Below, piece by piece: positions 15,055 through 29,815 of a DNA stretch of 64,000 bases. The stretch covers positions 1-64,000 of the forward strand of contig JAFGQN010000064.1 in the NCBI GenBank assembly GCA_016935665.1. The letters are read 5' to 3'. Positions within the stretch are counted from its first letter, which is position 1, and each line of letters opens with the position of its first letter. The position numbers were made by a program, and so were the translations under genes. The stretch comes from Deltaproteobacteria bacterium (GTDB lineage Bacteria > Myxococcota_A > Polyangia > JAAYKL01). Below the pieces are notes generated by a model that saw only the letters and a program-made list of their open reading frames with translations, ran no database searches and was not told where the DNA came from.

Positions 15055-18000
15055 ATGAGCCACAACACAACGACAAAACGGAATTTGCCCAACCCCACCC
15101 ATTGGATACACGGACGCATCCTGCGATGGCTGTTTTGGAGCCTGCCGCTGGTATTGCTCATTGCGAGCTGTCAAAAAGCCGAGAAGGTGGCCTACAGCAA
15201 CGCCACTCTCACCACCAGCAGCGGGACGGAGTATTTTGCTCACGAGGTGATTATTCGCAAATCCGACGACGTAAGTGTGGCACAGCTGGAAGCGCAGCTG
15301 CAAAAATACGGGGCGGTGATTGTGGATAAGGATGCGCGCATGGCAAAGCAACTGGGGTATTTTCGCGTGCTGTTGCCCAAAGACACCACGTCGGATGTGC
15401 TCATTTCCCGGTTGACGCAGGATGGCGTGACGCAGGAAGCGGAACGCAATTACATGGTGAATGTGAACATGACGCCCAACGATTCGTTGTATGCGAGTCA
15501 ATGGAACATGCGCATCATCCAGGCGGACAAGGCGTGGAACATTACCACTGGCAGCGTGGATGTGGTGGTGGCGGTGACCGATTCGGGAATCGATTTCAAC
15601 CACGCAGATCTCAAGACTCAGATATGGCAAAACCCCAACGAAATTCCCGGCAATGGGGTGGACGATGACAATAACGGTTACGTGGATGACGTTCGCGGCT
15701 GGGACTTTCAAAACAAAGACAACAACCCCGCCGATGACGCCGGTCACGGCACGGCGGTGTCGGGTGTGATTGGCGCACTGGGCAACAACGGTAAAGGCGT
15801 GGCCGGCGTGGGCTGGGACTTTCGCATTATGCCCCTGAAGTTTATTGGACCATCGGGCAGCGGCAGTCTGTGGGATGCGGCGGAAGCCATTTTGTATGCG
15901 GCCGACAACGGGGTCAAAATCATTAACGCCAGCTGGGGATGCAGTGGGTGCTATTCCGACTATTTTGTGCAGGTGCTGGACAAAATGGAGAGCAAGGGCA
16001 GCGTTCTCGTTGCGGCGGCGGGCAATGACGGTAAAAATATCGACAAAAAGCCCCAGTACCCGGCAGCGTATGGGCATCGCAATATCATTTCTGTGGGGGC
16101 ATCCTGGAAAGAGGACACGCCATTTGAATACTCCAACTGGGGCAAAATAAATGTGGATGTGGTGGCGCCGGGACGTCAGATTCCCACCACCGCCAGGGGC
16201 GGCGGTTACGGCGAGCAAAGCGGCACATCTTTGGCAGCGCCGCATGTGGCGGGCATTATGGCGCTCTATTGGGGGATGAATCCCGATGCCTCGGCCGACA
16301 CGGTTAAACAGCGACTGATTGCCACGTGCGACCCGGTCAGTGAACTGAAATATAAATCCGCGTGCGAGGGGCGCGTCAATGCATACCGCATGTTGACAGA
16401 CGACGACGAACCCCCTGTGGCGCCGGAAAACCTGGTGGCCACCCCCGGTGAGCGCAACGATGCCATTCTTACGTGGGACCCGGTGGACGACGCGGGATTG
16501 GCCATGTACATCTGCAAATGGGGACTGGCGCCTGGCAAATATATCAATGAAGTGATTGTCCCCGGAGACCAGACCACCACTATTATTGAAAACCTGGAAG
16601 ATGGCGTGCCCTACTATTTTGCGTGTTATGCCGCCGACAAATCCGGAAACATTTCGCCGCCGTCCAATGAGGCCACTTTGTTGCCCAAGGACGACACCGT
16701 GCCCCCTCAGGTCATTGACTTGCAGGCCAAATCACTGCCCGGTCCACGGGTTTCGGGTCAGGTGCATTCGTCGAGCAGTGAGGCCTCCACTTTTTATCAG
16801 GCGGAAAACGCCTACGACGGCAGTCCGCTCACCGCATGGCTGGCCGCCCCGTCTCCTGATGGCACTGAACCCGAGTATCTGGAAATCGATTTTAACCTGC
16901 CCACCCAGGTGGAGCGGGTGGCGTTAACGCCGGTAGCTGCGTACCCGGAATTTTTCCCCTCTGATTTTGACATCGAGCTCTCCATGGATGGCTCCAGCTG
17001 GACCGTGGTGGGCGGGCTTCGAAATGTGGTGGTCAGCGATGCCGAGGAAAAAATTGAAGTGTTCTTCCCCACACAGATTGCGGCCCACCTGCGCCTGACC
17101 ATTCATCAGGGTTCCGCCTTTGATTCAGGGTTGGCATACACGGGCATCGGCGAGCTGGAAGCGTTTGAGCCGGCCGCCGCGCCCGATGTGATTGTGCTGT
17201 CGTTTACGGCGCCTGGGGATGATCCTGGGTTTGGCACCGCCCACAGTTACGACATTCGATACGCCACTTCCCCCATTACCGCGGCCACGTTTGGCGATGC
17301 CACGCCTTTGGTGGTGGACACCCCCGCCGCCTCGGGGATACGGGAAGAAATTCGGATTGATGGATTACAGCCGGAAACCACCTACTGGTTTGCCATGACC
17401 GCCCGCGATGAAGTGGGCAATGTGTCCACCATGTCCAATGTGGTAGTGGGCGCCACCGCCACCATTTTACCTGGAACCATCACGGATTTTGAAGTGGTAT
17501 ACCAAAACAATGGCAGCACGTACCTCACCTGGAACGCGCCCGGCAACGACGGCTATACCGGCCAGGCCACATCCTATGCGCTCAGGTGGTCGTCTTCGCC
17601 CATGGACGCGGCCTCATTCACCGATGCGCACCCGGTGAGCGGCATTACAGCCCCGTTGCCAGCGGGAAGCAACGAGATGTTTGACATTACATCGCTGCAG
17701 CACCCGGGACAGTTCTTGTATTTTGCCATCGCGGCCATCGACGAGAAGGGACATATGGGGGGCATCTCCAATGTGGTGAGTGTGAAGCCCGTGTATGACA
17801 TGTTCGATACGGAGGCCCCAGCCGCCATCACCAATCTCAATGCGTTTTATTCGCTGGCCCGTGGATTGCGTCATGGGGAAGTGATTGATTCTTCCAGCCA
17901 TTTGCAAACGGATTACCAGACGCAAAATCTTCTGGATGGCGATGTGCTGACCATGTGGATGACCGAAGAGCTGCCGCCCACGCTGCCGGAGTGGGTTACC

Positions 18001-21000
18001 GTGGATTTGGGTGAGGTGCAGAGCATCGACGCCTTCCGCATGCATCCCGCTGTATACGGCAATCTGGTCCCCAACTTTCCAAGGGACTTTGAAATACAGG
18101 TGAGCGCCGATAACGTTAACTGGCAAACGGTTGTGGCCACCACCGGCCAGGCCGCTCAAATGGGTCAGTGGCTTGAGTGGCATCTGCCCATCGTCTCTGC
18201 GCGGTATGTGAAGGTCCATATTACCCTGCGCGGTTTTGCGTCGTGCAATGCCCCCACCGAATGCAATCAGCCGTCCACCGTGGTCATTAGCGAGCTTGAA
18301 ATTCTGGGCCCCACCCAGGATTTGGATGTGGATTTGCAATGGATTGCCCCTGGAGACGACGGATGGGAGGGTACTGCCTATGCCTATGATTTGCGGCATT
18401 CCATCCAGCCCATCACCGCGGCCAATTTTAGCGCCGCCACTCAGATGTCCATCAAAGCGCCTCTAACCGCTGGGATGTTTGAAGTGCACACCGTACCGGA
18501 TTTGGACTTTGGTGAAGACCACTACTTTGCCATCAAAAGTCAGGACGCCGCCGGCAACTGGTCCAGCCTCTCCAACGTGGCCAAATTGACTGCAGCGGTG
18601 AATCCCCCGGCGCCGGTGACGGATTTGTCGGCCGTTAATGTGACCAAAGACGCTGTGGAACTGCGATGGACCGCCGTGGGGGACGATGGTCTCGTGGGCA
18701 CTGCGGACAGCTACGATATTCGCTACGCCAAATTGCCCATCAATATGGATAACTGGCATTTGGCCAATGTGCTCTTTGATGTGCCGTTGCCCAAAGGCGC
18801 CGGCAGTGCTGAATCGCTGGTGGTCAGCGGGCTTTCTGCCGCCAGTGACTATTTCTTTGTGTTGCGCGTCCTGGACGATGAAGGGGGCGTGTCACTGTTT
18901 TCAAACATGGTGCATTTTAAAACCCTCACCGATACCCCTCCGCTCACAGTGTCTGATTTGCAGGCCATACCTGTGGATGTGAACGACAGCGAGGCGCTGC
19001 CCTTGTCGGTAGCGGATGTGAGCAGCCAATACACCGATGCGGCGTCGGCGGATATGCTCATCGATGGCACGGGCACCGGCGCCTGGCTCACCGGACAAAA
19101 GAGCGAGATGACCCCTGAATATGTGGAACTCTCGCTGGAGAAACCCACACTGGTGGGCGACATTCGACTGCTTTTGGCAGAAGGATACGAAGACATGTTC
19201 CCAGTAGACTTTCAGGTTCAATTGAAACTGGGAGAGGGTCAATGGGAAACGGTGATTTCCGAAAACAGTTTCTTTGTGGACGATGACGCAGCAGGTGTGG
19301 AGGAATGGCGCATTGGTGGTGTTGAAGCGGACCGCATTCGCATTGACATCACGCGCACGGCGCCCTCCAGTTTTGGCTACTTTGCGGCCATCGGCGAAAT
19401 CGAAGTGTTCGAAGCGCAAAGCCGGTTCGATACCATTATGTTGTCGTGGACGTCGCCATCTGTGACCGATGGCAAAGAGCGCGCCACACGGTACGATATT
19501 CGTCATGGGGGAGATGTTATTGTGGGCGAAGACGCCTTTTTAAGCGCGACGCCGGTGGCGGATACCGTTTTACCGAGAGACGCCGGGATGCCCGAGTTCA
19601 TGGCGGTGAGCGGGTTGGCACAGGAAACCCGGTATTGCTTTGCCCTTTCAGCTGTGGACAGTGTGGGCAATCGCTCAGAGATTTCAAACTCTCCCTGCGC
19701 GTATACACCGGGGATTCCCCCTGCGCCGGTGGTGGATTTAAGGATTACCGACATACTGGCCCACAGCGCCACTCTCGAATGGACCGCGTCCGGCGCAGAC
19801 TGGCGAGACGGTGTGGCGGCGGCCTATGAGCTCAGAGTGTCCACCGCGCGCATCAATAAATCCAACTGGAACGATGCACTGGTGTTTACCGGGTTACCCG
19901 CACCTTCACCCGCGGGGGAGAGCGAAACATTTACGGTGACCGGACTGGCAGGGGATACCGAGTACTACTTTGCCATTGTGGCCATCGATGGGGCGGGCAG
20001 TCGCAGCGGCATTTCAAATAATGCCCGCGGGTTGACCGGGGATGACGTGGCACCGCTGGCCATCACAGACCTTGTGACAAATACAGACTTCGATAACTGG
20101 GGAACATTGCAGCTGAGCTGGACTGCCCCAGGGGACAGTGGTCCCGTTGGCAGCGCCGACAGGTACGATATTCGCGTGGCCAAAGCGCCCATTACCGAAG
20201 CCAATTTTGCAGACGCCACGCCCGCGACGCCCATTGGCCTTGTACCGCAGGCGGCCGGGGAAAAAGAGACGCTGTCGCTGGCCAATCTTTGGCCGGAACG
20301 GGAAATTTTTGTGGCCATCAAGGCTGCGGATGCCGAAGGCAACTGGTCGGCCATTTCCAATGTGCCCTCAGCGCGTACCCGTGATGAAAATCCCGGTCGC
20401 GCCACGGATTTGGAAGTGGTGGAATCCACGTCATACGAACTGGGCAACGCCATGGTTCTATTGCGCTGGACAGCCCCTGGAGACGATGACATGGTGGGGA
20501 TTGCCAATCGCTATGTGTTCCGTTACTCGTATCAGCCGCTGGATGAACTCAATTTTGAGAGTGGCATTGAGGCGTCGGTGGATATAACTCCTGCGCCAGG
20601 GACCACTGTGCAGATGACAACCGTCAATGGGTTGAACGAAGGTGTGAATTACTGCTTTGCCTTCCGTGCCATTGATGAACGGGACAATGTGGGCAAGGTG
20701 TCCAATTCGGCCTGTACCACCACTGCGGACGGTATCGCGCCCGCCAAAATATGGGATTTGAAAGCCACCACTGGCGCCAGTCGCGGGACGGTGGATTTAA
20801 CATGGACCCACCCAGGTGACGATGAGATGTTTGGCAAGGCCGGCAAGACCGATTTGCGCTGGTCATATGCCGAGATGACGCCGGAAACGTTTGGCAGCGC
20901 CACACCAGTAAACGCGCAACCCGGGACAGGACTGGGGGGCACAGCTGCTCATTTTACCGCCACCAAGCTGCCCGACGAAGTGTTGCTCCACTTTGCCATT

Positions 21001-23931
21001 CGCGCCGTGGACGATGCGGGTAACTGGTCGGAGATGTCCAATGACGCGTCGGCCAGAACGCCGGATGTGGCGCCGGCGAAAATCGATGACCTAAAGCAGA
21101 CGGCGGTGGGGCTCAACAGCATCACGCTGGGATGGACCGCCGTGGGCGACGATGAATACAAAGGCACCGCCACCGCCTACGAGTTGCGTTACAGCGAGAC
21201 GCCACTGTCGGCGATCAATTTCGATGAGGGGACGGCGTTTGCCATTAACGCGCCATTGCAAAGTGGCAGCAAGGAAAGCGCCACCATTACCGGTCTTGTG
21301 GAAAGCACCAACTACTACATTGGCATTCGCGTGGTGGACGACCGGGGCAACTGGTCGCCCATTACCTTCATTTACCCCGCCCACACTCAGGATACGATTC
21401 CGCCGGGAATGATTTCACCAGTGGATGTTCGTGCGGGATCGGGCGCGGGGTCACTTAGACTGGACTGGATTGCCACAGGAGACGACCTTGATGTGGGCAC
21501 CGCCACCCGCTATCTCATTCGTTATGCGTCCTCGTGTATCACGCCTGACACCTGGGCACAGGCCAGCGTGGTGCAAAACGAGAAAGAACCCAAACCATCC
21601 GGTTATGCCGAGCTGTTCCAGATTGACGGGCTCGCCGGAGAAAGAGAGTACTTTGTGGCCGTGCGCGCGGTGGATGAAGTGGGCAACGTGGGACCGGTGT
21701 CGCCGTGTGCCCAAGGAGAAACCGCAGCGGTTCCACCCAACGCCATTGATGATTTGAGAGGGCAGGCCACCCGGCCCCGTTCGGTGATTCTCAACTGGAC
21801 CGCGCCATTTGATGTGGGCGCGCTGGAGCGTGCGGTGTCATACGATATTCGTTACGCCACGTTCAAGCTGACCGAAGGCAACTTTTATGCGGCAGCGACG
21901 TTTGAAAATGACATTGTCCCAGGGAATGTTGGAAAGGCAGAGACGGCGACGGTCCCAAATCTGAAGGAATCCACGCTGTATTATTTTGCCATCAAGTCCA
22001 AAGATGATCGCGGTGCCGTAAGCGCCATTTCCAATGTGGTGGAGGTCACGACTCTTGACGAAACCCCACCGGCGGCGCCGCCAGCCATCACGGCCAATAC
22101 AACAGGGTCATTTACGGGCATGATGACAACTGTTACCGCATTTGCCTCGTCGCAACTGGTGGATATTCTGGGCGCAGATAATATCCTGGATGGGGACGCC
22201 AATACCATGTGGGTATCCGATGCCTCCAGTGTGCCTCGCAATGAATCCATTACGCTGGATTTGGGTGATCTGTACACGGTGGATCGCATTCGCCTGCTGC
22301 CCAGTGCCGAGTATATGCATCTGTTCCCCGAGAACTTTGCGATTTATGTGAGCGCCGATAACGAAAAATGGACGAAGGTGCTCACCCTGGAACAGTTCGA
22401 AGCCACCAGCGCCGATTGGATGACGTTTGGCTTTGATGCCACCTCGACTCAATATGTGCGCGTGATGTCCTATGACCCGGTAAAGAGTTACTTTGGTCTC
22501 TATTATTCGGTGATTTCCGGGATGGAAGTGTATGCATCCGCCCATTACAGCGGGTACACCACATTAACGTGGACCGCGCCCGGTGATGACATGATGGTGG
22601 GGACGTCCCAATTTTACCAGGTGTTTTACAGCGAGGCGGCGTTTGACAGCAACACGCTTGACAGCGCCACTGCCATCACCCTGAGTAAAAAACCGTTGTC
22701 GGCCCATTACACTGAAGCCGTGACCATTGCCGGTACCAAAGGGGAGACCCGGTATTACTGGGCGGTGCGCGCCGGGGATGAAGCGGGCAACATTGGTGAG
22801 ATTTCAGAGGTGGTCACCGCCATGAGTTCCGATGCCAAACCCGCCATAGTTAAAGACCTTAGGGCTTTGGCTGTGACAAAGAACAGCGTGGATTTGGCGT
22901 GGAGCGCATCGGGGGATGATGGTCGAACCGGGGTTGCGGCAGCGTCTGAAATGCGGTTTGCCCCCTGGCCGCTGACGGTGGAGAGTTTCCCGCTGGCCGA
23001 GCTGGTTGGTGGGATGCCCGCGCCGGCTGTGGCGGGAACATCACAGAGTGTGACTGTGAACGGCTTGAGTGATGATACGGTGTATTACTTTGCCATGGTT
23101 GTCACGGACGAAAAAGGCGCATCGTCGTATCTCTCCAACGTGGCCGTGGTACGCACGGAATCCGGTCCCGACAACAAGGCGCCCGCGGCCGTTACCGATT
23201 TGGATGCACGGGTGGTGAGCGCCAATGGATACGTGCTCGAAGGGGTGTCCGCCGTCAGCACCAGCGAACAGGCGCCGGCGTTTGTGGGCCTCAATGTGGC
23301 CGATGGCGATTTGAACACATCGTGGTCCACCACCGCAAAGGCCAATGCCGATGCCCAGTCTGTGACTGTTGATTTGGGAGCGGTGTATCCGCTCAGCGAA
23401 CTGCGTTTGTGGCCAGATATTGATTTGGCCCATCTGTTCCCGGTGGGCGTGGCAGTGCGGGTGAGTGTGGATGGGTTGACGTGGTCTACTGTGCTCGCAG
23501 AAAATGATGTGGTGCTCAATGCCGGCGACTCGTTGGAAGCCGTTTTCCCGGTCACTGCGGCGCGATTTGTTGAAGTGGTTGCCACGGAACTGGCCATGGA
23601 GAACAATGGCCTGTACTACGCTGTTGTGGCTGAAGTGGAAGTGGTTCACGCAGAGAGTGATCCCGGTACCGTGGTGGTGACGTGGACCGCATCCGGTGAC
23701 GATGGCGTTGACGGCATTGCCTCCTCATATGCCCTTCAATACAGCGCCTGCCCGTTTGACAGCGCCTCTGCACAACTGGCCACCACATATGCGCCCGGCG
23801 AATCCGGAGACCCCGAACTCGCGCGTATCACCGGCCTTTCTTCGGGCACGTACTGTGTTGCTGTCACCGTCATCGATGACGCCGGCAACCAAAGCCCCCT
23901 CTCCAACGTTGGCGAGATTACAATTCCGTAG
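15055..23931 (+). CDS. Giant subtilase lipoprotein with FN3 and discoidin-like modules
   Basis: A 2958-aa protein. The signal peptide ends in LLIASC (Cys39), a lipobox. Residues about 55-140 are a fervidolysin-like propeptide. The S8 peptidase domain covers about 150-430 with D176 (VTDSG), H231 (GHGTAVSG), N324 and S392 (GTSLAAPH). The rest is a chain of about 16 FN3-like modules, most with a W(T)xxGDD signature followed by a YDIRYA-like strand, and five discoidin/F5-8C-like modules near residues 555-700, 925-1080, 1300-1465, 2340-2490 and 2705-2860, each followed directly by an FN3. FN3 and discoidin modules usually bind polysaccharide or other surfaces, so a tethered protease acting on extracellular polymers or prey is plausible inference. 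It stands alone with large gaps on both sides. Confidence 0.93.
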   Translation: MSHNTTTKRNLPNPTHWIHGRILRWLFWSLPLVLLIASCQKAEKVAYSNATLTTSSGTEYFAHEVIIRKSDDVSVAQLEAQLQKYGAVIVDKDARMAKQLGYFRVLLPKDTTSDVLISRLTQDGVTQEAERNYMVNVNMTPNDSLYASQWNMRIIQADKAWNITTGSVDVVVAVTDSGIDFNHADLKTQIWQNPNEIPGNGVDDDNNGYVDDVRGWDFQNKDNNPADDAGHGTAVSGVIGALGNNGKGVAGVGWDFRIMPLKFIGPSGSGSLWDAAEAILYAADNGVKIINASWGCSGCYSDYFVQVLDKMESKGSVLVAAAGNDGKNIDKKPQYPAAYGHRNIISVGASWKEDTPFEYSNWGKINVDVVAPGRQIPTTARGGGYGEQSGTSLAAPHVAGIMALYWGMNPDASADTVKQRLIATCDPVSELKYKSACEGRVNAYRMLTDDDEPPVAPENLVATPGERNDAILTWDPVDDAGLAMYICKWGLAPGKYINEVIVPGDQTTTIIENLEDGVPYYFACYAADKSGNISPPSNEATLLPKDDTVPPQVIDLQAKSLPGPRVSGQVHSSSSEASTFYQAENAYDGSPLTAWLAAPSPDGTEPEYLEIDFNLPTQVERVALTPVAAYPEFFPSDFDIELSMDGSSWTVVGGLRNVVVSDAEEKIEVFFPTQIAAHLRLTIHQGSAFDSGLAYTGIGELEAFEPAAAPDVIVLSFTAPGDDPGFGTAHSYDIRYATSPITAATFGDATPLVVDTPAASGIREEIRIDGLQPETTYWFAMTARDEVGNVSTMSNVVVGATATILPGTITDFEVVYQNNGSTYLTWNAPGNDGYTGQATSYALRWSSSPMDAASFTDAHPVSGITAPLPAGSNEMFDITSLQHPGQFLYFAIAAIDEKGHMGGISNVVSVKPVYDMFDTEAPAAITNLNAFYSLARGLRHGEVIDSSSHLQTDYQTQNLLDGDVLTMWMTEELPPTLPEWVTVDLGEVQSIDAFRMHPAVYGNLVPNFPRDFEIQVSADNVNWQTVVATTGQAAQMGQWLEWHLPIVSARYVKVHITLRGFASCNAPTECNQPSTVVISELEILGPTQDLDVDLQWIAPGDDGWEGTAYAYDLRHSIQPITAANFSAATQMSIKAPLTAGMFEVHTVPDLDFGEDHYFAIKSQDAAGNWSSLSNVAKLTAAVNPPAPVTDLSAVNVTKDAVELRWTAVGDDGLVGTADSYDIRYAKLPINMDNWHLANVLFDVPLPKGAGSAESLVVSGLSAASDYFFVLRVLDDEGGVSLFSNMVHFKTLTDTPPLTVSDLQAIPVDVNDSEALPLSVADVSSQYTDAASADMLIDGTGTGAWLTGQKSEMTPEYVELSLEKPTLVGDIRLLLAEGYEDMFPVDFQVQLKLGEGQWETVISENSFFVDDDAAGVEEWRIGGVEADRIRIDITRTAPSSFGYFAAIGEIEVFEAQSRFDTIMLSWTSPSVTDGKERATRYDIRHGGDVIVGEDAFLSATPVADTVLPRDAGMPEFMAVSGLAQETRYCFALSAVDSVGNRSEISNSPCAYTPGIPPAPVVDLRITDILAHSATLEWTASGADWRDGVAAAYELRVSTARINKSNWNDALVFTGLPAPSPAGESETFTVTGLAGDTEYYFAIVAIDGAGSRSGISNNARGLTGDDVAPLAITDLVTNTDFDNWGTLQLSWTAPGDSGPVGSADRYDIRVAKAPITEANFADATPATPIGLVPQAAGEKETLSLANLWPEREIFVAIKAADAEGNWSAISNVPSARTRDENPGRATDLEVVESTSYELGNAMVLLRWTAPGDDDMVGIANRYVFRYSYQPLDELNFESGIEASVDITPAPGTTVQMTTVNGLNEGVNYCFAFRAIDERDNVGKVSNSACTTTADGIAPAKIWDLKATTGASRGTVDLTWTHPGDDEMFGKAGKTDLRWSYAEMTPETFGSATPVNAQPGTGLGGTAAHFTATKLPDEVLLHFAIRAVDDAGNWSEMSNDASARTPDVAPAKIDDLKQTAVGLNSITLGWTAVGDDEYKGTATAYELRYSETPLSAINFDEGTAFAINAPLQSGSKESATITGLVESTNYYIGIRVVDDRGNWSPITFIYPAHTQDTIPPGMISPVDVRAGSGAGSLRLDWIATGDDLDVGTATRYLIRYASSCITPDTWAQASVVQNEKEPKPSGYAELFQIDGLAGEREYFVAVRAVDEVGNVGPVSPCAQGETAAVPPNAIDDLRGQATRPRSVILNWTAPFDVGALERAVSYDIRYATFKLTEGNFYAAATFENDIVPGNVGKAETATVPNLKESTLYYFAIKSKDDRGAVSAISNVVEVTTLDETPPAAPPAITANTTGSFTGMMTTVTAFASSQLVDILGADNILDGDANTMWVSDASSVPRNESITLDLGDLYTVDRIRLLPSAEYMHLFPENFAIYVSADNEKWTKVLTLEQFEATSADWMTFGFDATSTQYVRVMSYDPVKSYFGLYYSVISGMEVYASAHYSGYTTLTWTAPGDDMMVGTSQFYQVFYSEAAFDSNTLDSATAITLSKKPLSAHYTEAVTIAGTKGETRYYWAVRAGDEAGNIGEISEVVTAMSSDAKPAIVKDLRALAVTKNSVDLAWSASGDDGRTGVAAASEMRFAPWPLTVESFPLAELVGGMPAPAVAGTSQSVTVNGLSDDTVYYFAMVVTDEKGASSYLSNVAVVRTESGPDNKAPAAVTDLDARVVSANGYVLEGVSAVSTSEQAPAFVGLNVADGDLNTSWSTTAKANADAQSVTVDLGAVYPLSELRLWPDIDLAHLFPVGVAVRVSVDGLTWSTVLAENDVVLNAGDSLEAVFPVTAARFVEVVATELAMENNGLYYAVVAEVEVVHAESDPGTVVVTWTASGDDGVDGIASSYALQYSACPFDSASAQLATTYAPGESGDPELARITGLSSGTYCVAVTVIDDAGNQSPLSNVGEITIP

Positions 23932-25806: not shown

Positions 25807-26517
25807 ATGAACAAAGAAATATTATCCGGTGTCTTTTTGGCAACGGGCATTGCGCTTGGTGGTTTTTTTATCAGTAAAACCATGTTTAACGCGAAAGTAG
25901 CGTTGAATACAGCTGAAGCCAAGGGGCTGGCGGAGCGCCGTGTCAAGGCGGATCGAGCCAATTGGGAGATTGGATTTGGGGTGTCCGGGAAAACGCGGGA
26001 GGAGGTGCCGCAGCTGTACCGGGAGGCGGAGGCGCAGCAGGCACGGATTGTGGCGTTGCTAAGAAAGAACGGCATTGGGGAAAGGGAAATGAAAACCGGG
26101 GTCATCGATTACCAGCATCAGGAGTATCGGGATGAAAATCAGAACCTGGTGGACGAAACCCATTCATTGACCGGGAGCATCAGTGTTGAGACAGATAAAG
26201 TGGCGCTGGTGGACAGCGTGCGCGGTAAAGTCAATAAACTGATAGCCGAAGGCATCAATATCCAAAACGGCCAACCGTCCTTCCACTTTACTCGACTCAA
26301 CGACATCAAACCGGAGATGCTTAAAGAAGCCACTAAAAATGCCCGTGTGGCGGCAAATGAATTTGCCGAGAACGCTGGCGTAAAGGTGGGTGGCATTAAC
26401 AGTGCGCGTCAGGGCAATTTTTATATCCGCGATGTGGGATCGGATTATGGGGATGTGGAGAAAATCGAAAAAGATGTTCGGGTTGTGACGACAATCACGT
26501 TTTATTTGACTGATTGA
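25807..26517 (+). CDS. SIMPL (DUF541) domain protein, membrane-anchored
   Basis: A 236-aa protein. Residues about 7-27 form one hydrophobic segment (signal anchor without a lipobox), followed by a SIMPL/DUF541 domain. It begins KGLAERRVKADRANWEIGF, and TGSISVETDKV and VRVVTTITFYL match the family. Some members (BP26-type) form periplasmic oligomeric channels; the biochemical role is unknown for most. Strong AGGAGG precedes the ATG. It appears monocistronic. Confidence 0.9.
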   Translation: MNKEILSGVFLATGIALGGFFISKTMFNAKVALNTAEAKGLAERRVKADRANWEIGFGVSGKTREEVPQLYREAEAQQARIVALLRKNGIGEREMKTGVIDYQHQEYRDENQNLVDETHSLTGSISVETDKVALVDSVRGKVNKLIAEGINIQNGQPSFHFTRLNDIKPEMLKEATKNARVAANEFAENAGVKVGGINSARQGNFYIRDVGSDYGDVEKIEKDVRVVTTITFYLTD

Positions 26518-26864: not shown

Positions 26865-27470
26865 ATGAAAAAAACAGTGATGAGTTTGATTTGTTTCGTT
26901 CTGGCCGCGTTGGCCACTGCCTGTGATCCGGCGTTTTGGGACCTGCTGGATTCCGACATCATTCACGGGAAAGATTCCGACTCGGAGATCGTCGGGGATT
27001 GCGCCTATACCTGTAGTCCCCATTGTGCATCCATCGGTGGCACATCCGTGCCTGGCGAATGTCACGACGACAATTTGAAGTGCTGTGATTTACCTTCCTG
27101 GGACACCGTCATGGTGACGTGTGAGTACACCTGCAGTGAAGTCTGCATTACAGTGGGTGGGATGGTCATGGAAGGGGAGTGCGCAGGCGGTTTGAAATGC
27201 TGCGACCTGTCACCTGTGGATACCGAAGATGCACCGGTGGAAGATTGCGCCTATACGTGCAGTGAAAACTGCATATCAGTAGGCGGAGTGGTCATGCCTG
27301 GGGATTGTGGAGATGAGATTTTAAAGTGCTGTGATTTTTCCGGTGATGACACCGCAGAGGATGTATGTCAATATAACTGCCTGGATCACTGTCGTTCCAT
27401 TGGTGGCACCCCAATGCCAGGCACCTGCAGCCGGCAGCTCCGTTGCTGTGATATCTCACAAATTGAATAG
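26865..27470 (+). CDS. Lipoprotein with four tandem six-cysteine modules
   Basis: A 201-aa protein. The signal peptide ends ALATAC (lipobox, Cys20). Four repeats of about 40 residues follow, each with the same spacing C-x3-C-x3-C-x11-C-x5/6-CC and a shared core such as GGxxxxG before the fourth cysteine. Acidic linkers join the repeats. Six cysteines ending in a CC pair suggest three disulfides per module. The end of the pattern resembles defensins and other knotted mini-proteins, but the first spacings differ and I know no exact family. As an exported, anchored protein it should fold outside the cytoplasm. AGCGAGGGATTT precedes the ATG. It stands alone. Confidence 0.85.
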   Translation: MKKTVMSLICFVLAALATACDPAFWDLLDSDIIHGKDSDSEIVGDCAYTCSPHCASIGGTSVPGECHDDNLKCCDLPSWDTVMVTCEYTCSEVCITVGGMVMEGECAGGLKCCDLSPVDTEDAPVEDCAYTCSENCISVGGVVMPGDCGDEILKCCDFSGDDTAEDVCQYNCLDHCRSIGGTPMPGTCSRQLRCCDISQIE

Positions 27471-28990: not shown

Positions 28991-29815
28991 GTGAATAAAA
29001 TTTCCAGGTTAATGACGTTGGGAACACTGGCTGCGTTCGCGCTGACATCGGTTGCGATGGTGCGGTTGCGCGCTGATTCGCCTGCAGTCTCAATTGTTCC
29101 CGCAGGGCTCGAATGCCTGGCAAAGGTCTATGGGGGCAGAACTGTTCCTGCGGCTCCAAAGGAACGCAGTGATTTGTCGCGCTTCTTGATTCTCTCCAAC
29201 GATACCCGGATTTTGTGGGATGATCACATTGATAAATCCTTTGACGAAAAGCTGGCGCGTCCGGATTTGGAGGATACGCTGAGCATCCCGTATCCATTAA
29301 CTGACAATTACCTTCCGCTATCCATTAATTTCGATCCGGGCCGGTTTCGCTCCATGGCGCTTTTAAAAGCAGTGTACGGGGACACTCAAAGCGATGTAAA
29401 AAAGAATCTGACCTCCATTACATGGGCGCCCTCTGGAAAGAAAATCCGATTCAATCGGCAACTGGGGGCTGCGGCTGCCCTGCAACAGGTCGGTAAACAG
29501 TTGGCCGGGATGAACGGCGTGACGCGTTATGTGAAAAATCTGGGCGGGACATTTAACTGGCGAGTTATTAAAGATACCAATCGTTTGAGTCCCCACAGTT
29601 TTGGCATCGCCGTGGATATTAACACGACGTTCAGCGACTACTGGAAATGGGCGGCGCCCGGATTGGATCCGCTGCCCTATCGCAATCGAATTCCCATGTC
29701 TGTGGTGCGGGCGTTTGAACGCAATGGATTTATCTGGGGCGGCAAGTGGTATCATTACGATACGATGCACTTCGAATACCGACCGGAGTTTTTTTGCACA
29801 TCTGATGAAAAATGA
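28991..29815 (+). CDS. M15-family D-Ala-D-Ala carboxypeptidase-like protein
   Basis: A 274-aa exported protein with an N-terminal hydrophobic signal segment (about 7-24). The M15 (VanY/DacB-like, LAS fold) zinc site is visible: SPHSFGIAVDIN gives His about 202 and Asp about 209, and MHFEYRPEF gives the second His about 260 with WGGKWYHYD just before. Such enzymes trim peptidoglycan stem peptides. The start is GTG after AAGGGACACAGT. It converges on the DUF4846 gene with 35 bp between them. Confidence 0.88.
   Translation: MNKISRLMTLGTLAAFALTSVAMVRLRADSPAVSIVPAGLECLAKVYGGRTVPAAPKERSDLSRFLILSNDTRILWDDHIDKSFDEKLARPDLEDTLSIPYPLTDNYLPLSINFDPGRFRSMALLKAVYGDTQSDVKKNLTSITWAPSGKKIRFNRQLGAAAALQQVGKQLAGMNGVTRYVKNLGGTFNWRVIKDTNRLSPHSFGIAVDINTTFSDYWKWAAPGLDPLPYRNRIPMSVVRAFERNGFIWGGKWYHYDTMHFEYRPEFFCTSDEK

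Follow-up and report, generated by a model that had tools for sequence, protein, structure and literature searches.

A lipoprotein gene with four six-cysteine modules

Here we describe a gene encoding a 201-aa lipoprotein in a 64,000-nucleotide stretch of DNA from a Deltaproteobacteria bacterium (contig JAFGQN010000064.1, positions 1 to 64,000, forward strand; hereafter the window), together with the ~30-residue six-cysteine module, probably held by three predicted disulfides, that this protein carries in four tandem copies. The gene has the following features, lipoboxes being called here and throughout by pattern or by eye:

26865-27470, + strand: open reading frame of the stand-alone tandem-module lipoprotein, 201 aa
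26854-26859, + strand: probable ribosome-binding site, purine-rich GCGAGG, read directly from the sequence
26865-26921, + strand: predicted signal peptide with lipobox LATA, to the residue preceding the lipid-bearing Cys (sequence pattern)
26922-26924, + strand: predicted lipid-modified Cys20 (lipobox pattern LATA-C20)
27000-27086, + strand: module 1, CAYTCSPHCASIGGTSVPGECHDDNLKCC, spacings 3,3,11,6 (profile match, E 2.9e-17; AlphaFold2 pLDDT 89)
27120-27203, + strand: module 2, CEYTCSEVCITVGGMVMEGECAGGLKCC, spacings 3,3,11,5 (profile match)
27246-27332, + strand: module 3, CAYTCSENCISVGGVVMPGDCGDEILKCC, spacings 3,3,11,6 (profile match)
27366-27449, + strand: module 4, CQYNCLDHCRSIGGTPMPGTCSRQLRCC, spacings 3,3,11,5 (profile match)

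All four modules conform exactly to C-x3-C-x3-C-x11-C-x5/6-CC, and a short acidic linker separates them from the lipobox. When the mature protein was shuffled 200,000 times, one module match arose in 12 trials and two or more never did. The repeat unit is a real domain, because a profile of the first copies found 33 matches, among them those of the window, at E ≤1.3e-4 (3e-17 to 1e-4) in the 8.16 Mb draft genome to which the window belongs (G000); this and all other counts from genome searches are lower bounds. The full-length protein matched one place only in the same genome. The original prediction of four such modules in a lipoprotein is thus confirmed by the open reading frame, the cysteine spacings, the shuffling test and the profile matches, with the correction that the modules end in C-x5/6-CC, as its own title stated, and not in the C-x-CC of its text.

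Module copies and host proteins in G000

The ~33 modules of G000 are spread over some 30 lipoproteins, usually with one copy each. Proteins with several copies are the window protein (four), a 171-aa protein at L050 (two) and L062 (three, two of them divergent), and a GH6 cellulase carries two divergent modules. The usual order is a signal peptide with lipobox, a (DSDGDSD)n stalk, the module, a second stalk and then the working domain. Many of the hosts are plant-fibre enzymes; the working domains recognised by Pfam are GH10 (2), GH11, GH30 (2), CE15 glucuronoyl esterase (2), SASA acetylesterase, GDSL (2), a prolyl-oligopeptidase-like or carboxylesterase-like hydrolase, BNR_4, arylsulfotransferase, VWA, CAP, histidine phosphatase and beta-helix (2) domains.

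Across 54 distinct module proteins, the 25-residue flanks of the module average 94% and 85% D/S/T/G/E/A, and the module normally lies N-terminal of the working domain, on the anchor side. Two M6 metalloproteases without a lipobox from the sister species described below (G001; L224 and L226, one of which has a start-incomplete frame) carry the module C-terminally, just ahead of an SCGC-hydrophobic tail. In either order, the module is placed between the presumed anchor and the enzyme. Both are secreted proteins with SD-repeat stalks whose SCGC and hydrophobic C-terminus is a possible sorting tail. CGC tails of this sort resemble MYXO-CTERM (PMC11980579) and speak for Myxococcota as the likely phylum, but NCBIfam did not score such SCGC/CGC C-terminal tails as MYXO-CTERM; the assembly contains no 16S rRNA.

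Stalked lipoproteins that lack the module are also common in G000 and rich in carbohydrate-active enzymes (CAZymes), including GH5, 9, 16, 18, 31, 43, 45, 54 and 62; a 0.91 Mb sample, drawn mostly from contigs without modules and yielding no frequency, contained 24 such module-free enzymes. An enrichment of CAZymes among module-bearing relative to module-free stalked lipoproteins is therefore unsupported, as the latter are also largely CAZymes.

Single loci also show presence and absence of the module. A xylan cluster on contig 104 of G000 (L044, 73.5-84.5 kb) encodes the stalked lipoproteins CE15, GH10, GH10, GH43-like and GH11, three of the five with the module. Two homologous DUF1554-like stalked lipoproteins of one genome, at L113:11763-12866 (- strand) and L070:2740-4149 (+ strand), form a natural pair, one with the module and one without. 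On contig 48 of G000 (L153:8400-8700), what is left of a decayed module, GTLHEDQICTGEIRCCENA, lies in a frame that is broken, which suggests that modules also get lost.

Replacement of the module in a sister species

The draft genome of a sister species of the same genus (G001) has its own version of the module, with consensus CPGTCVAQGECRNLNGTYLPDYTCPAETPICC and the frame C-x3-C-x5-C-x12-C-x6-CC (3,5,12,6), in ~26 copies. The hosts are of the same kinds as in G000: GH10, GH11, GH30/59-like, GH43, CE15, GDSL, SASA, alpha-galactosidase, arylsulfotransferase and M6 metalloprotease proteins. These 26 modules share 78% protein identity, and at fourfold third positions of identical residues 64% differ (0.642), against 70% (0.704) expected for unrelated codons. 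Because fourfold sites are nearly saturated, the similarity of the copies reflects selection and not recent copying; the copies are old and their protein sequence has been kept by selection. The same figures exclude gene conversion or recent duplication as the cause of their uniformity.

For six enzymes orthologous between G000 and G001, the catalytic domains are 87, 80, 79, 73, 68 and 62% identical, whereas their modules are only 25-38% identical and have the other cysteine frame. Pairing the modules by orthology gave an identity of 0.32, compared with 0.33 for random pairing (permutation P 0.93), while the within-species identity for the same six enzymes was 0.79 in G001 and 0.53 in G000. 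Since orthologue pairing adds no module identity and identity within a species is higher, module type follows the species and not the enzyme. Both genomes also hold a minority type, with five G001-type (type-B) copies in G000 and three G000-type (type-A) copies in G001.

Occurrence in other genomes

Closely similar modules are rare beyond G000, with three in G001 and one each in G005, G006, G512, G398, G578 and G581; the G512 match (L109) does not read as a full module within one open frame. The hosts in G398 (a GH88-type hydrolase) and in G578 and G581 (CE15) come from another family (f11) and have a Gly/Ser-rich stalk, with the same order of lipobox, stalk, module and CAZyme. When divergent copies were included (C-x3-C-x3..6-C-x9..13-C-x4..6-CC), 10 of 14 genomes from the bacterial family of G000 proved to have the domain, which also turns up sporadically in other parts of the class; G000 has 47 matches, G001 41, G002 18 and G006 13. 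Stand-alone tandem lipoproteins resembling the window protein recur in other genomes of the family. No module matches were found in viral contigs or in plasmids. Wide bacterial spread, as sought with an exact DNA pattern, was rejected: the 10 matches in 84,980 species amount to chance and none has the CC, the window's own genome lying outside this search and the strictness of the pattern meaning that its result bounds close relatives only.

In the window itself, the module gene is directly preceded by a gene for a SIMPL/DUF541 family protein (25807-26517, + strand; PF04402, E 4.6e-20), and a gene for an M15_4 D-Ala-D-Ala carboxypeptidase-like protein lies downstream (28991-29815, + strand; PF13539, E 6e-22). 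A 2958-aa lipoprotein encoded at 15055-23931 (+ strand) carries a subtilisin-like protease at its N-terminus (deseasin MCP-01 is the best PDB match, E 2e-63), and in the very long tail behind it fibronectin-like and discoidin-like stretches can be recognised by eye.

Relationship to known families and predicted fold

The whole window protein had no significant match in Pfam, NCBIfam or the PDB, and no Pfam or NCBIfam family exceeded its curated cut-off over the modules, in agreement with the earlier statement that no named family has this exact spacing. Single modules gave only sub-threshold Pfam scores, to Defensin_beta, CLIP and WAP. The match to PF00711 was not significant (best E 0.023; window module E 0.084, 13.3 bits against a cut-off of 21), and one divergent module matched the insect clip model at a sub-threshold E of 0.013. 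Insect clip domains (PF18322, PF18398) likewise have six cysteines ending in CC and lie beside a secreted enzyme, but their loops are longer and they belong to animal proteins.

AlphaFold2 models of window module 1 (34 sequences; pLDDT 89, pTM 0.57) and of a GH10-borne module (24 sequences; pLDDT 85.5) agree in their layout: short strands lie at the second Cys, at residues 19-20 ahead of C4 and at the CC, and there is no helix. For the module 1 model, Foldseek searches of the PDB returned mBD-7 (TM 0.51), human beta-defensins and two cnidarian peptides, and for the GH10 module human beta-defensin 1 (TM 0.44). All these hits have E ≥4, and the likeness is therefore a consistent hint and not proof. 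A sequence profile of the divergent type matched peptide P9R, a beta-defensin derivative, at E 0.025, and human beta-defensin 1 at E 0.29. The AlphaFold2 models and the Foldseek hits weakly suggest a beta-defensin-like fold.

The modules share with beta-defensins, or trans-defensins (PF00711), six cysteines ending in CC and the spacings C2-x3-C3 and C4-x5/6-CC, and the CC in place of CxC fits the trans type of defensin as described in PMC7203481. They differ in a first spacing of 3 instead of 6 and in their setting: beta-defensins are cationic, released peptides, whereas the modules are acidic (net charge zero or lower in 94%, mean -3.2) and embedded in multidomain bacterial proteins. According to PMC7203481, only animals evolved trans-defensins. 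We do not claim homology to animal defensins and regard convergence as the simpler view. With the window type, a sequence profile matched the cis-defensin eurocin at E 2.5e-4 over 21 residues (aligned motif YxCxxHCxxxGGxxxGxC), and bacterial cis-defensins are known, Myxococcus included (PMC11561630). Membership of the cis, or CS-alpha-beta, group is nevertheless ruled out: the window modules have the C2-x3-C3 spacing, but every module ends in CC in place of the defining C5-x-C6, C1-C2 is far shorter, and the predictions place a strand at C2 and no helix at C2-x3-C3.

Function of the module

Judging from sequence comparisons, we give an even chance to the reading that this is a species-specific attachment module binding one shared cell-surface partner, of which the window protein would be the multivalent stand-alone form. 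Dozens of surface proteins have one copy in their stalk, with the membrane anchor on one side and the working domain on the other. Each copy would bind the same species-specific putative partner at the surface, which may be a protein or else a glycan belonging to the cell's envelope. Binding would gather or hold the enzymes, a role that dockerins play in cellulosomes, although the module here is unrelated to dockerins. The window protein, because it has four copies and no other domain, would act as a multivalent linker or as an occupier of the partner. We infer a single shared, species-specific partner as the best explanation because the module is uniform within a species even on unrelated enzymes, is under selection, has been replaced as a set between sister species, is optional and is located on the anchor side.

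The closest functional parallels are dockerins. In bacterial cellulosomes, too, one small module per enzyme is found on many unrelated enzymes in species-specific versions, and dockerin-cohesin pairing is generally regarded as species-specific (PMC12484212); unlike those systems, no Ca-binding dockerin repeats were seen in the modules, and the hosts are individually membrane-anchored. The CBM10-like dockerins of fungi are short disulfide-bearing modules, single or in tandem, on plant-wall enzymes, and their cohesin partner was long unknown (PMC10485095), but they are eukaryotic and the sequence comparison with them here consists only in the absence of any Pfam hit. A bolder proposal, which we put forward tentatively and hold to be doubtful, is that of a new non-cohesin docking system of Gram-negative bacteria, in which beta-defensin-like, swappable, species-specific plugs would assemble dozens of membrane-anchored enzymes into a complex at the surface, and in which sister species would have swapped the entire set of plugs on orthologous enzymes.

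Several observations weigh against a shared attachment partner. No partner was found, and cohesin (PF00963), which would pair with a dockerin, was absent from all three genomes searched for it (G000, G001 and G002; 0/3). The G000 modules, with SIGG and SWGG subtypes, are less uniform (~50% identical) than one strict partner predicts. The module was seen on only ~3 of 13 GH10 genes, and some module-bearing enzymes of G001 have G000 orthologues that are 73-84% identical yet lack it, orthology being judged among fetched loci only and both assemblies being drafts. The low share of GH10 genes, together with the many CAZyme-rich module-free lipoproteins, indicates that stalk and lipid display are general and the module an optional addition; with the module-free close orthologues, it means that any benefit is optional as well.

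The main rival, which we think unlikely, is a small new carbohydrate-binding module that would target enzymes to plant fibre in a role like that of fungal CBM1. Many hosts act on xylan, the fusion to CE15 (G578, G581) and to a GH88-type enzyme (G398) persists in distant genomes despite their Gly/Ser-rich linker, and modules on xylan-type enzymes more often have Trp at position 12 than the others do (7/8 vs 7/21; Fisher p=0.014, a post hoc test uncorrected for relatedness). However, orthologous enzymes, presumably with the same substrate, bear unrelated module versions in the two species, and the hosts include metalloproteases, arylsulfotransferase, VWA, phosphatase and CAP proteins. Moreover, a GH43 of G001 with its own CBM6 also bears the module, and aromatic residues are few outside the W subtype.

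We consider it rather improbable that the module is a tag recognised in outer-membrane transport or in sorting to the surface, for instance by the type II secretion system, and that it co-evolves with the machinery of each species. A partner in that machinery would fit the species-wise replacement, every host has a lipobox or a MYXO-CTERM-like C-terminal tail that predicts a surface location, and MYXO-CTERM clients are carried by the type II secretion system (PMC11980579). Yet the 24 sampled stalked lipoprotein enzymes of G000, and the close orthologues of module bearers noted above, lack such a tag, and a protein with four of them in tandem would carry it redundantly.

That the module is a passive rigid knot, a spacer or a protection against proteolysis within a flexible stalk, is less probable still; its location inside long D/S/T/G stalks would suit such a role, but a knot would need cysteines and glycines only, whereas positions other than the cysteines show strong conservation from copy to copy even though synonymous sites are nearly saturated. 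The original prediction had offered a binding, protective or toxin-like surface domain; surface binding fits the architecture, but a displayed defensin-type antimicrobial or toxin is most improbable despite the weak fold and sequence resemblance to defensins, since the modules are acidic, stay attached mostly in the stalks of secreted enzymes, show no evident processing site or hint of immunity in neighbouring genes, and are replaced by a different version on the same enzymes of the sister species, which argues for an attachment tag.

Implications

The six-cysteine module defines an unnamed domain family. Its evolution, in which dozens of unrelated enzymes carry one type of module in each species, points to a partner that they share and that co-evolves with the module. 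If that partner is a scaffold, these bacteria would possess a kind of surface enzyme complex distinct from those of clostridia and anaerobic fungi, and the module versions would provide ready-made orthogonal pairs useful for building assemblies of enzymes. Should the fold be confirmed, bacteria would have a beta-defensin-like framework that serves as a non-antimicrobial recognition module, a finding relevant to the question of whether animals invented the trans-defensin scaffold or whether this design is easy to arrive at.
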